A stretch of 64,000 nucleotides of DNA from Moritella sp. JT01 (GTDB lineage Bacteria > Pseudomonadota > Gammaproteobacteria > Enterobacterales > Moritellaceae). The number at the start of each line of letters is the position of its first letter. The stretch's first letter is position 1. A program made the translations under genes and the position numbers. Under the pieces are notes generated by a model. It was given only the letters and a program-made list of their open reading frames with translations. It was not told the origin of the DNA and searched no databases. The stretch covers positions 261,822 to 325,821 of the forward strand of contig NZ_LOCN01000006.1 in assembly GCF_001574435.1 (NCBI RefSeq), given 5' to 3'. Below are positions 10,521 to 13,078 of this stretch, piece by piece.

Positions 10521-11162
10521 ATGAACAAGGATAAACGCCGTATTATTTTAGAGCGTCTGCGTGATAATAATCCCCATCCTGAAACTGAGCTAAATTTCTC
10601 CTCAGCATTTGAGCTACTTGTTGCGGTAACGCTGTCAGCCCAGGCTACAGATGTGAGTGTAAATAAAGCGACTAATAAACTTTTTCCTGTTGCAAATACG
10701 CCACAAGCGATCTTTGATTTAGGTGTTGAAGGACTAAAAGGTTATATCAAAACGATTGGTTTATACAACACCAAAGCCAATAACGTCATTAAAGCCTGTC
10801 AGATCTTATTAGAGAAACACAATGGGGTTGTACCCGAAGATCTAGATGCTTTAGTGGAACTACCTGGTGTTGGCAGAAAGACCGCGAATGTTGTATTAAA
10901 CACTGCATTTGGTTGGCCGACAATCGCTGTTGATACGCATATCTTCCGCGTCTCAAACCGCACTAAATTAGCCATGGGTAAAAACGTTGATCAAGTAGAA
11001 GCAAAACTACTAAAAGTGATACCTGCTGAATTTAAAGTAGATGTGCACCACTGGTTAATTTTACTCGGTCGTTATACTTGTATCGCCCGTAAACCGCGTT
11101 GTGGTTCTTGTTTAATTGAAGATCTTTGTGAGTATAAAGACAAAATATACCCTGAAGAATAG
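10521..11162 (+). CDS. nth: Endonuclease III (DNA glycosylase/AP lyase)
   Basis: A 213-aa Nth, which removes oxidised pyrimidines and cleaves at abasic sites in base-excision repair. The helix-hairpin-helix LPGVGRKTA carries catalytic Lys120, VDTHIFRVSNR carries Asp138, and C187-X6-C-X2-C-X5-C binds the [4Fe-4S] cluster. These positions match the E. coli enzyme. SD AGGA precedes the ATG. Its position after rnfE is conserved in gammaproteobacteria. A terminator lies between, so it may have its own promoter. Confidence 0.97.
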   Translation: MNKDKRRIILERLRDNNPHPETELNFSSAFELLVAVTLSAQATDVSVNKATNKLFPVANTPQAIFDLGVEGLKGYIKTIGLYNTKANNVIKACQILLEKHNGVVPEDLDALVELPGVGRKTANVVLNTAFGWPTIAVDTHIFRVSNRTKLAMGKNVDQVEAKLLKVIPAEFKVDVHHWLILLGRYTCIARKPRCGSCLIEDLCEYKDKIYPEE

Positions 11163-11207
11163 CGACTCGCTAGAATGATATTTAATGTAAAGTATACCTT
11201 TTTAACA

Positions 11208-11236
11208 TTGACTTTAAATATCATTAAACTTACAAT
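11208..11236 (+). promoter_or_regulatory. Candidate promoter of the mgtE leader
   Basis: TTGACT (11208-11213), 17-bp spacer and TACAAT (11231-11236) make a good sigma70 promoter 46 bp after nth. Transcription from about 11243 would give mgtE a leader of about 530 nt. No PhoP-type box could be recognised. Confidence 0.65.
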
Positions 11237-11268
11237 CCGCTCGAATTAATCAAACAAAGGAAAATAAT

Positions 11269-11304
11269 ATGGAAAGCGACCATTGTAGGAGAGCCTATAT
11301 ATAG
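11269..11304 (+). CDS. Leader mini-ORF 1 (MESDHCRRAYI)
   Basis: An 11-codon frame starting about 26 nt after the predicted transcription start, with an AAAGGAAAA purine-rich stretch before the ATG. It starts with acidic residues (ME-D), like mini-ORF 2. No homologue is recognised. It may be a leader peptide or chance. Confidence 0.35.
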   Translation: MESDHCRRAYI

Positions 11305-11376
11305 AGATTTGGATTTCACATTATAAAACGACTCCCTCTTCTATTTATACTCTCTCATTATATAAAGCATAAATAA

Positions 11377-11460
11377 TCTGAAATAATAATTATTATTCAG
11401 ACGTATTTGCTATTCACTATAAACACCCCTTACTTCCGATAATTAATCGGTTATGGTAAG
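11377..11460 (+). other. Two stem-loops in the mgtE leader
   Basis: A near-palindrome TCTGAAATAATAATTATTATTCAGA at 11377-11401, then CCGAT-AATTA-ATCGG at 11435-11449 inside an outer CTTAC...GTAAG pair (11429-11460). Neither has a clean U-tract. They are structured elements of the long 5' leader, of unknown role. Confidence 0.5.
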
Positions 11461-11593
11461 TTCAGATTTAATCAATATTAAATTTAATCAACTGTGTTTA
11501 AATGTTAGTTATATGTAATAAGTAACAATTGTTAACCATTACTCTACCACTGACACAAATAATACTTAAACACTTGATTTAACAGGTGATAAA

Positions 11594-11662
11594 ATGGAAA
11601 TTGACATTCCCCCTAGTCCACTACCAATCCCCAAAGCGATATGTAGTGGTATGTTAATTTAG
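11594..11662 (+). CDS. MgtL-like proline-rich leader peptide upstream of mgtE
   Basis: A 22-codon ORF, MEIDIPPSPLPIPKAICSGM then LI, with SD AGGTGA five bases before the ATG. It ends 108 bp before mgtE. Acidic residues right after the start followed by clustered prolines (five within residues 6-13) is the arrangement of MgtL (MEPDPTPLP...) in the Salmonella/E. coli mgtA leader. There, low Mg2+ destabilises ribosomes on the acidic/proline codons and changes RNA folding. Here the codons also overlap a hairpin arm (CCACTAC 11618-11624 with GTAGTGG 11643-11649). The peptide itself is seen; the Mg2+-sensing role is inferred. Confidence 0.65.
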   Translation: MEIDIPPSPLPIPKAICSGMLI

Positions 11663-11690
11663 ACTTTAATATAATTAACACCTAAATTAA
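11618..11690 (+). promoter_or_regulatory. Tandem hairpins of the mgtE leader
   Basis: Hairpin A pairs CCACTAC (11618-11624) with GTAGTGG (11643-11649), inside mini-ORF 2. Hairpin B pairs TTAATTTAG (11654-11662) with CTAAATTAA (11682-11690) directly after it and includes the mini-ORF stop codon. Ribosome position on the proline codons would decide whether hairpin A can form. No U-tract follows, so any termination would have to be Rho-dependent. Confidence 0.55.
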
Positions 11691-11770
11691 ATCACGTAAT
11701 TAATATACCCATCTTCGCTGCTATTAATATTATCAAATATATTTAATCCTATTATATTGGAGGACTTCTC

Positions 11771-13078
11771 ATGTCCAATAATACAGCGCTAAAAAATAAT
11801 ACACACCAACTAACATCAAATGACAACGTAAACTTAAATTTAAATTTAAATTTAAATGATATTAATAACTCGTTTGATCTATGGAGTGATGAAACGAAAA
11901 ACAAATTAATTATATTTTTCAAAAATAATTCCATAGAAGATATACGTTATTGGTTTAGTAATAAAACATTAAATCAATATTATCAAATCAAAAAGTTATT
12001 GTTAGAGGGTGATAATTTAAATTTAAACAAATTATTACCCGCTTGGCTACTTGCCGATATTGAGATTTTAGGTAATGTCGATAGTCCAGTCTTTTCTGTT
12101 ATGTCGCCAGCCCTCCCTCTGCAACTAAATGCTAATATGTCAGTTGCAGAAGCAGTAAACCACGTTAAATCAATGAAAAAAAGTCTCCCCTCTAAAGCCG
12201 CAATAATTGTTGACCAGCATGGACGTTATTATGCTTTATTGGAATTACAAATGCTGCTCCAGCATGATGATAATGTCTTATTAGCAGATATTGCATTGCA
12301 AGTTGAGCCTTGTCATGCTGGTGAGGATCAAGAGTATGCAGTCAGACAATTACAAATGGGCAATACAGAATATTTGCCCATTGTTGATATACGCGGCCAT
12401 CCAGTTGGATTGTTTCAATGGTTGCAAGCCTCTCGAGTGATGCAGCTTGAGTTAACGGAAGATGTAAATTTACAAATGGGGATTCAGAGTAGTCTAAACG
12501 AGCCTAGTTATCTTGATATGTCAGTAATAGATCATGTGCGTAAACGCATATTTTGGGTGCTGGGTTTAGCTGCTATCGGGATCTTCTCTGGCATGATTAT
12601 TCAGAGTTATGACGATGCGATAGCCGCATTAACAATACTCGCTTTATACATGCCTATGATTGCTGACACTGGCGGCAATGCTGGAAGTCAATCTGCGACT
12701 GTAATTGTACGTTCCTTAGCATTAGGAGAACTGAAAATTAAAAACTGGCTCACGGTTGTCTGGAAAGAATTAAAAATAGCGAGTTTAATCGGTTTAGCGT
12801 TGGCAGTCGCTTCATTTATAAAGGTCTCTTTTTTATCTAGTAGCACCGAATTACCGGGCAATATAACGTTGACGTTACTAGGTTCAGCTATTGCATTAGC
12901 ACTGTTTCTACAAGTTCTTACTGCGACAGTTATTGGTGCAATTTTACCTTTAATTGCTAAATCATGTCGATTAGATCCTGCCGTTGTAGCAAGCCCTGCT
13001 ATTACAACCTTTGTTGATATTACGGGATTACTGATTTATTTCTATATCACCACGACCTTACTTGGTATTACGGCTTAA
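11771..13078 (+). CDS. mgtE: MgtE-family Mg2+ transporter
   Basis: A 435-aa protein. The N-terminal cytoplasmic part (about 1-115) has a variable Asn/Leu-rich start, CBS domains span about 115-240, and five TM helices about 255-435. The signature PMIADTGGNAGSQSATVIVRSLALGE and the final DPAVVASPAITTFVDITGLLIYF are diagnostic for MgtE, a Mg2+-gated channel-like importer. SD GGAGGA is 8 bp before the ATG. Residues 19-28 are NLNLNLNLND, encoded by four TTAAAT hexamers. The long leader with an MgtL-like peptide suggests control by cellular Mg2+. The N domain is shorter than in Thermus MgtE. Confidence 0.92.
   Translation: MSNNTALKNNTHQLTSNDNVNLNLNLNLNDINNSFDLWSDETKNKLIIFFKNNSIEDIRYWFSNKTLNQYYQIKKLLLEGDNLNLNKLLPAWLLADIEILGNVDSPVFSVMSPALPLQLNANMSVAEAVNHVKSMKKSLPSKAAIIVDQHGRYYALLELQMLLQHDDNVLLADIALQVEPCHAGEDQEYAVRQLQMGNTEYLPIVDIRGHPVGLFQWLQASRVMQLELTEDVNLQMGIQSSLNEPSYLDMSVIDHVRKRIFWVLGLAAIGIFSGMIIQSYDDAIAALTILALYMPMIADTGGNAGSQSATVIVRSLALGELKIKNWLTVVWKELKIASLIGLALAVASFIKVSFLSSSTELPGNITLTLLGSAIALALFLQVLTATVIGAILPLIAKSCRLDPAVVASPAITTFVDITGLLIYFYITTTLLGITA
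11834..11857 (+). repeat. TTAAAT x4 simple-sequence repeat in mgtE
   Basis: Four perfect TTAAAT hexamers encode alternating Leu and Asn near the N-terminus of MgtE. The unit is two codons long, so slippage would change length without a frameshift. Confidence 0.9.

Follow-up and report, generated by a model that had tools for sequence, protein, structure and literature searches.

What senses magnesium for a transporter whose own sensor domain is not recognisable is the question raised by the mgtE locus of Moritella sp. JT01, which lies in a window of 64,000 nucleotides (nt) of contig NZ_LOCN01000006.1 (positions 261,822 to 325,821). A preliminary description of this window had noted a short proline-rich open reading frame (ORF) with a Shine-Dalgarno (SD) sequence ahead of mgtE, and had compared its logic with that of MgtL, the leader peptide of mgtA in enteric bacteria. 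After comparison of this leader with those of relatives, we consider it probable that the mgtE leader is an MgtL-like attenuator carrying two short ORFs (one in Vibrionaceae), for which the steps involving Mg2+, Rho and ribosome drop-off are inferred.

The ORF already described, here called upstream ORF 2 (uORF2), is located at 11594-11662 on the forward strand and encodes MEIDIPPSPLPIPKAICSGMLI, of which M-x-x-D-I-P-P-S (11594-11617) is the conserved unit. Its coordinates, its SD-like AGGTGA (11584-11589, only 4 nt ahead of the ATG) and the mgtE start codon at 11771 were confirmed. A chance ORF was rejected, as dinucleotide shuffling of the 450 nt ahead of the window mgtE produced a short ORF starting ATG..D-x-P-P in 3 of 2000 cases, and shuffling of Vibrionaceae leaders in 2 of 2340.

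Leaders of the window type were collected from whole genomes of Moritella (7), Shewanella (8) and Psychromonas (3), and each of these 18 carried a start with an acidic residue followed by Pro-Pro (PP). Among 11 genomes of the genus Moritella, a close mgtE orthologue was present in 7 (the window's included), a different short MgtE in one (G007, preceded by MNDSDHPPSIKVGNNP), and only a distant paralogue in 3; no acidic-PP ORF was seen by eye in the 600 nt ahead of the other MgtE paralogues of this genus, at 15 loci. In family searches, 8 of the 136 f5 genomes (Shewanellaceae, going by named matches) and 3 of the 24 f11 genomes (Psychromonadaceae) had a window-type gene, each of the 11 with the motif. 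The upstream sequence could be read at ten named loci from Moritella, Shewanella and Psychromonas, which overlap the 18 leaders above, and all ten had the motif (9 by script, S. waksmanii by eye); one further locus was truncated. A fourth family, f21, was assigned to Vibrionaceae from the 70.8% identity between its MgtE and a Salinivibrio MgtE with the same leader. In the first Vibrionaceae genus, 80 of 118 genomes yielded 83 short-MgtE matches, of which 80 had the motif, as did 39 of 40 further leaders, mostly from other genera (five with GTG starts read by eye). The preliminary description had asked whether the frame is broken in relatives that keep mgtE; the opposite was found, since the start is kept in 18 of 18 window-type and 119 of 123 Vibrionaceae leaders. 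The four lacking it (L148-L150, L249) are additional MgtE copies in genomes having another, and the longer Vibrionaceae MgtE copies (five loci, L287-L291) showed no such ORF under the filter applied.

Searches with a wider reach pointed to the same specificity. Upstream regions of 69 MgtE genes from distant bacteria, with gene starts assigned by script, gave one weak acidic-PP match. The pattern D-H-P-P after ATG plus three codons matched once each in 15 of 275 genomes, 14 times at mgtE leaders. With two codons before the acidic residue, matches were obtained in 33 of 295 genomes; the 30 loci read comprised 10 mgtE leaders, 4 chance-like matches and 16 CorC-like N-termini in f5. Apart from the genome of the window, a class-level search of 369 genomes detected the short MgtE (E<=1e-35) in one, where it sat at a contig edge with an unreadable upstream region. 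Judged from these comparisons, uORF2 is real and conserved across four marine families, far above chance.

Codons were counted in 136 leaders bearing the motif (117 from Vibrionaceae, 8 each from Moritella and Shewanella, 3 from Psychromonas), chosen by the D/E..PP pattern; the 117 were also used for folding. This selection dropped just 4 Vibrionaceae leaders out of 123, and all 18 of the window type passed it; also left out of the 117 were L153 and L284, whose divergent leaders (MQNVDFPPSLNGIGNN) are counted among the 119 with the motif. The peptide start in this set is M-x(2-3)-[D/E]-[I/H/Q/Y]-P-P, with Asp two residues ahead of PP in 134 leaders and Glu in the other 2. Synonymous drift is seen at both proline codons (CCT/CCC for the first, CCT/CCG/CCC/CCA for the second), and the codon after PP is AGT (Ser) in 134 of 136. 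Past PPS, uORF2 varies in sequence and length: D-I-P-P-S is kept in all 7 Moritella leaders, where the ORF runs to 17 to 22 amino acids (aa) and length and frame diverge. The peptide first described is thus conserved in its acidic-PP start and not in the remainder, and a functional peptide product is unlikely because of this variation. These codon patterns indicate that the first 8-9 residues of uORF2 are constrained at the peptide level, and that the AGT codon is likely constrained at the RNA level. In two Psychromonas leaders (L025 and L236), a GGAGG within uORF2 (GGAGGATACTTATGG) might initiate a very small third ORF, and its complement CCTCC sits in the Pro-Pro codons of uORF2. A Salinivibrio kushneri plasmid record (L305) keeps the leader, with MNNTDHPPSLNGEK, before an MgtE-like ORF of 127 aa, far shorter than the S. 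proteolyticus gene (L306).

The preliminary description had found uORF2 and overlooked both the other short ORF of the leader and its C-rich tracts. This ORF, uORF1 (11269-11304, forward strand), encodes MESDHCRRAYI behind the SD sequence AAAGGAAAATAAT, and is characterised by Glu2-x-Asp4 and by tandem Arg codons AGG AGA. It was found in all 7 Moritella leaders, with one peptide variant, MESDCCRRAYK. Counterparts of the form M[DE][ST]D occupy the corresponding position in 6 of 8 leaders from Shewanella (M-D-[S/T]-D) and 1 of 3 from Psychromonas, and in all three genera these ORFs lie 292-375 nt ahead of uORF2; shuffles yielded one in 1 of 1400, 2 of 1600 and 1 of 600 for Moritella, Shewanella and Psychromonas, respectively. 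Downstream of uORF1 is a C-rich, G-poor stretch resembling a Rho-loading site (11305-11400, forward strand; 15 C and 3 G in 80 nt), and the 7 Moritella leaders have 15-26 C and 1-5 G per 80 nt there. In the window, TCTATTTATACTCTCTCATTATAT (11340-11363, forward strand) forms an RNAalifold helix with the uORF1 tail (11284-11304), a candidate for masking the Rho utilization site; the helix is in the same register in 6 of 7 Moritella. In Shewanella and Psychromonas, pairing of the uORF1 tail was at or near shuffle level and is not decisive.

A stretch with more C than G also follows uORF2 (11660-11750, forward strand; 12 C and 3 G per 60 nt, counted from 11660 and from 11690). For this tract we analysed 118 short-MgtE leaders, the 117 of Vibrionaceae and that of G007. 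In the 50 nt at +100 from the uORF, 96 of 118 contain at least 8 C and at least twice as many C as G; elsewhere the same is true of 2 leaders at -200, 2 at -150, 6 at -100, 0 at -50, 14 at +150 and 0 at +180. The uORF tail pairs with the tract at a mean of -15.1 kcal vs -11.7 for shuffled tracts, and the 72 distinct tails pair better with their own tract than with swapped ones (-16.6 vs -14.8 kcal, z -6.1; z 0.1 when the tract was reversed). A gapless helix of at least 10 pairs was observed in 75 of 118 leaders, compared with 30 of 118 for reversed tracts and 15.6% of shuffles. Distinct sequences form this helix (GGAGAAAAAT/ATTTTTCTCC, TGGAGAAGAAT/ATTCTTTTCCA, GGAAAATC/GATTTTCC, GGGAAGC/GCTTCCC), and in Vibrionaceae the sequences show covariation of the final uORF codons with the tract. 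In folding simulation at 25°C, a ribosome placed at the uORF stop raised the unpaired fraction of the tract to 0.538 from 0.454, with an increase in 84 of the 118 leaders and a decrease in 12, and one placed at the PP codons hardly altered it (0.470). Among Shewanella tails, 5 of 8 outdo almost every shuffle in downstream pairing (fraction <=0.02), and 1 of 3 does so in Psychromonas; for this comparison, the tail of the 42-codon ORF of L246 was cut at codon 14.

Two hairpins of the window had been proposed earlier. That inside uORF2 (CCACTACC/GTAGTGG, 11618-11649, forward strand) was recovered by RNAalifold on the 7 Moritella leaders, and its arms were checked. The other, over the uORF2 stop (11654-11690, forward strand), is a perfect inverted repeat of TTAATTTAG (11654-11662) and CTAAATTAA (11682-11690) in the window; its register is shifted in the RNAalifold consensus. 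By sequence comparison, pairing between ORF tail and downstream tract is better supported in relatives than these hairpins. In addition, the element TTCGCTGC (11714-11721, forward strand) can pair with AGCGA of the uORF2 tail (11635-11639) or with CAGCG in the mgtE codons (11784-11788), as judged from an RNAalifold helix with the mgtE codons and a duplex search, and it may act as a hinge.

The gene behind this leader, mgtE (11771-13078, forward strand), encodes 435 aa with an MgtE transporter domain. The earlier assignment of mgtE holds, PF01769 being matched; the protein is divergent, with PF01769 as its sole Pfam match and a TIGR00400 score of 187 bits, below the cutoff of 232.75. The MgtE_N and CBS domains gate MgtE by Mg2+, and neither was recognisable in the window MgtE. 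MgtE_N was detected in 0 of 7 leader-bearing MgtEs scanned and in 3 of 3 leaderless paralogues; CBS was above cutoff in 1 of the 7 (L027). Across these ten proteins, those that have lost the protein sensor are the ones bearing the leader, and sensing may therefore have moved from protein to mRNA.

Under the attenuator reading, a ribosome in ample Mg2+ would pass the acidic and proline codons, reach the stop and cover the last codons of the ORF; the C-rich tract would then stay open, Rho would load, and transcription would end before mgtE. In low Mg2+, the nascent acidic-PP chain would destabilise the ribosome, causing drop-off at D-[I/H]-P-P before the last codons, and these freed codons would pair with the tract, exclude Rho and allow mgtE to be transcribed. 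The mRNA would in this way supply the Mg2+ control that an MgtE without the usual N domain has lost.

Several observations weigh against this attenuator. The strict uORF1 pattern was missed in 4 of 11 Shewanella and Psychromonas leaders (L236 has MGTDSCRK, and three are without uORF1), and the energy of the uORF1 tail helix is at or near shuffle level in most Moritella. The best 60-nt window after uORF1 has 14-23 C and 1-6 G in all 14 leaders, a figure without shuffled control. Only one acidic residue precedes PP in 93 of 117 Vibrionaceae peptides (two in 24), weaker than E-P-D-P of MgtL. As for the tail-tract pairing, swap controls also deviate for the spacer before mgtE (z -3.1), the upstream region (-2.3) and the 5' half (-2.2), and helices of at least 8 pairs discriminate poorly, being present in 106 of 118 leaders, in 92 of 118 with reversed tracts and in 58% of shuffles. 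The uORF2 tails of Moritella stand out in 2 of 7 leaders (shuffle fractions 0.03 and 0.06) and are no better than many shuffles in the other 5. Strong pairing evidence comes only from Vibrionaceae, whose sequences are related.

Instead of transcription, the ORF codons or tail might control a structure hiding the mgtE ribosome binding site (RBS), as mgtQ does for mgtB (excerpts of PMC8092293). The RBS GGAGGACTTCTCATGTCC of the window (11759-11776, forward strand) lies in an RNAalifold hairpin, GGAC/GTCC, kept in 16 of 18 window-type starts; both sides are changed in L245 (GGGC/GCCC), and L237 has GGAT/GTCC. The Vibrionaceae mgtE start likewise lies in a near-invariant block, TGGTCGTTACC..CCAATCGGGAGATTCGCCATG..GGTAATGA, and exact GATGGTCG, the complement of uORF CGACCATC, is present in 74 of 80 leaders. 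When a ribosome was placed on the uORF in equilibrium folding at 15°C, RBS accessibility did not shift consistently across the 117 Vibrionaceae leaders: the mean was 0.42 without ribosome, 0.44 at the start, 0.43 at PP and 0.41 at the stop, with 32 up and 16 down at PP and 21 up and 27 down at the stop. In L009, accessibility rose from 0.38 to 0.51 with the ribosome at PP; in the 7 Moritella leaders there was almost no change. A long-range CGACCA/TGGTCG pairing is nearly invariant, thus offering little covariation, and has one mismatch in L264; it is not decisive. Simple RBS sequestration was rejected as the main switch because of the occlusion simulation, and we regard a translational switch as unlikely. 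In leaders such as L029 and L251, the near-invariant block (GATGGTCGTTACC..CCAATCGGGAGATTCGCCATG..GGTAATGA) reaches from about 75 nt ahead of mgtE to 18 nt inside the gene; a variable self-complementary hairpin is inserted in it in some genera, and the SD sequence sits in an AATC-GGGA-GATT mini-hairpin.

The PP codons themselves suggest that the leader might sense proline rather than Mg2+, pausing at P-P reporting charged tRNA-Pro or the activity of elongation factor P, as has been reported for mgtP in mgtCBR. PP is present in 136 of 136 leaders of a set selected by D/E..PP, and ORFs with Pro codons in leaders answer proline in Salmonella (excerpts of PMC3641672). The acidic residue is no less constant than PP and is swapped only for Glu, uORF1 has no proline, and the D-I-P-P-S start recurs at CorC in Shewanella, which makes proline sensing rather improbable. 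Attenuation by an intrinsic terminator in Vibrionaceae, with hairpin P3 and its U-rich tail as the off switch, appears very improbable. P3 belongs to the consensus of 79 leaders, and P3 with U-rich RNA is terminator-like in L029, the sole such leader scanned, a point that also counts against the Rho-dependent attenuator; P3 does not overlap the ORF tail and therefore has no obvious coupling to it, and no intrinsic-terminator-like site was found on the forward strand of the window leader. A known Rfam element, such as a Mg2+ riboswitch or another described leader RNA, was also rejected: over the window only six tRNAs reached gathering scores, the leader alone (E up to 5) gave two microRNA matches far below gathering scores, and 7 loci gave no match.

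The gap between the upstream neighbour nth, which ends at 11162, and mgtE is 608 bases and holds a promoter and both short ORFs. The good promoter described at the start of the leader was identified by sequence scan as sigma-70-like TTGACT-17-TACAAT (11208-11236, forward strand), and both hexamers are invariant across the aligned leaders of all 7 Moritella genomes. The inverted repeat AATGATAT (11174-11181) ... ATATCATT (11218-11225), found by sequence check at 11174-11225 with no strand assigned, spans the -35 element and is a candidate operator; AATGATA...TATCAT of this repeat is seen in the alignment of the 7 Moritella leaders. The mgtE starts of L243-L245 were shifted by hand to the downstream ATG after the SD. 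Elsewhere in the window, the six tRNA genes stand in a row at 1047-1857 with nearly identical scores.

The acidic-PP start also recurs in coding sequence. CorC-like proteins of Shewanellaceae (L059-L068, L070-L075, L292-L294) begin MSDDIPPST (MSDDNPPST in L074), the same start as in mgtE leaders, and one locus was confirmed as CorC by NCBIfam; CorC of Moritella starts MN[DG]DKPHS, and that of Vibrionaceae MNEENPPSS or MNEDNS. E. coli CorC (YbeX) is said to hold a ribosome-destabilising sequence at its N-terminus (Chadani 2021 as cited in excerpts of PMC12421838). We tentatively propose, as a possibility falling somewhat short of even chances, a widespread family of acidic leader peptides, arranged in tandem in window-type leaders, that would serve MgtEs without N domain as a ribosome-stability gauge of Mg2+, with tail codons masking a Rho site and the CorC start tuning efflux oppositely. 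If true, D-I-P-P-S on Shewanella CorC would tune uptake and efflux in opposite directions by one trick, and the regulation of MgtEs without N domain would be explained. In enteric bacteria, leader ORFs that abort translation or are inefficiently translated have been reported for mgtA, mgtB and partly corA. A conserved version with another motif, found in four families of marine bacteria on a transporter class unrelated to these, would mean either repeated evolution of the trick or a much greater age for it. More than 100 natural variants would be at hand for testing what makes a nascent chain abort translation.

For MgtL, excerpts of PMC11282234 report that full translation keeps the Rho site open, that drop-off at EPDP turns mgtA on, and that Glu2 and Asp4 are mutated residues shown to matter; excerpts of PMC11552253 give the same logic. 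Both window peptides, uORF1 and uORF2, carry Glu2 and Asp4. Because the acidic-PP start is conserved in relatives and these residues match the key positions of MgtL, the anatomy of the leader supports the view that it would work like MgtL, and the MgtL-like logic first proposed is upheld at the level of anatomy. With MgtL of E. coli and Salmonella the leader shares a short ORF with an SD, acidic residues at 2 and 4, early prolines, conservation of the peptide in relatives (136 leaders; 4 of 123 Vibrionaceae upstream regions lack it), a place ahead of a Mg2+ transporter gene, and Rho-loading-like RNA downstream. It differs in standing before mgtE and not mgtA, in having D-[I/H]-P-P-S and not E-P-D-P, in occurring in other bacteria, in the second acidic uORF upstream in most window-type leaders and in the lack of an Rfam match. 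A partial survey of the literature gave no description of an acidic-PP mgtE leader.

Tandem leader ORFs, the second with proline, are also known as mgtM and mgtP of mgtCBR; the mgtM peptide is reported as unconserved, with ATP-responsive adenines, whereas uORF1 has a conserved Glu/Asp-x-Asp and the downstream gene is mgtE. At mgtQ, before mgtB of Salmonella, acidic residues likewise abort translation in favour of a Mg2+ transporter, but mgtQ is intergenic and controls translation, whereas the leader here is 5' and folding gave no support for RBS control. Translation of corL also represses a Mg2+ transporter, CorA, of another class, and the conserved part of CorL is reported with a single proline (excerpts of PMC11552253). 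RNA elements ahead of mgtE include the Thioalkalivibrio mgtE motif, a candidate riboswitch reported only in that genus (excerpts of PMC11109978), and the M-box before Bacillus mgtE (excerpts of PMC9111926); unlike these (candidate) riboswitches, the present leader matches no Rfam family. Its MgtEs also differ from MgtE with cytosolic domains, MgtE_N plus CBS, an architecture not found in the seven leader-bearing proteins scanned. Judged from its different gene and different motif, the mgtE leader peptide is not a member of the MgtL/mgtA family and would only work like it.

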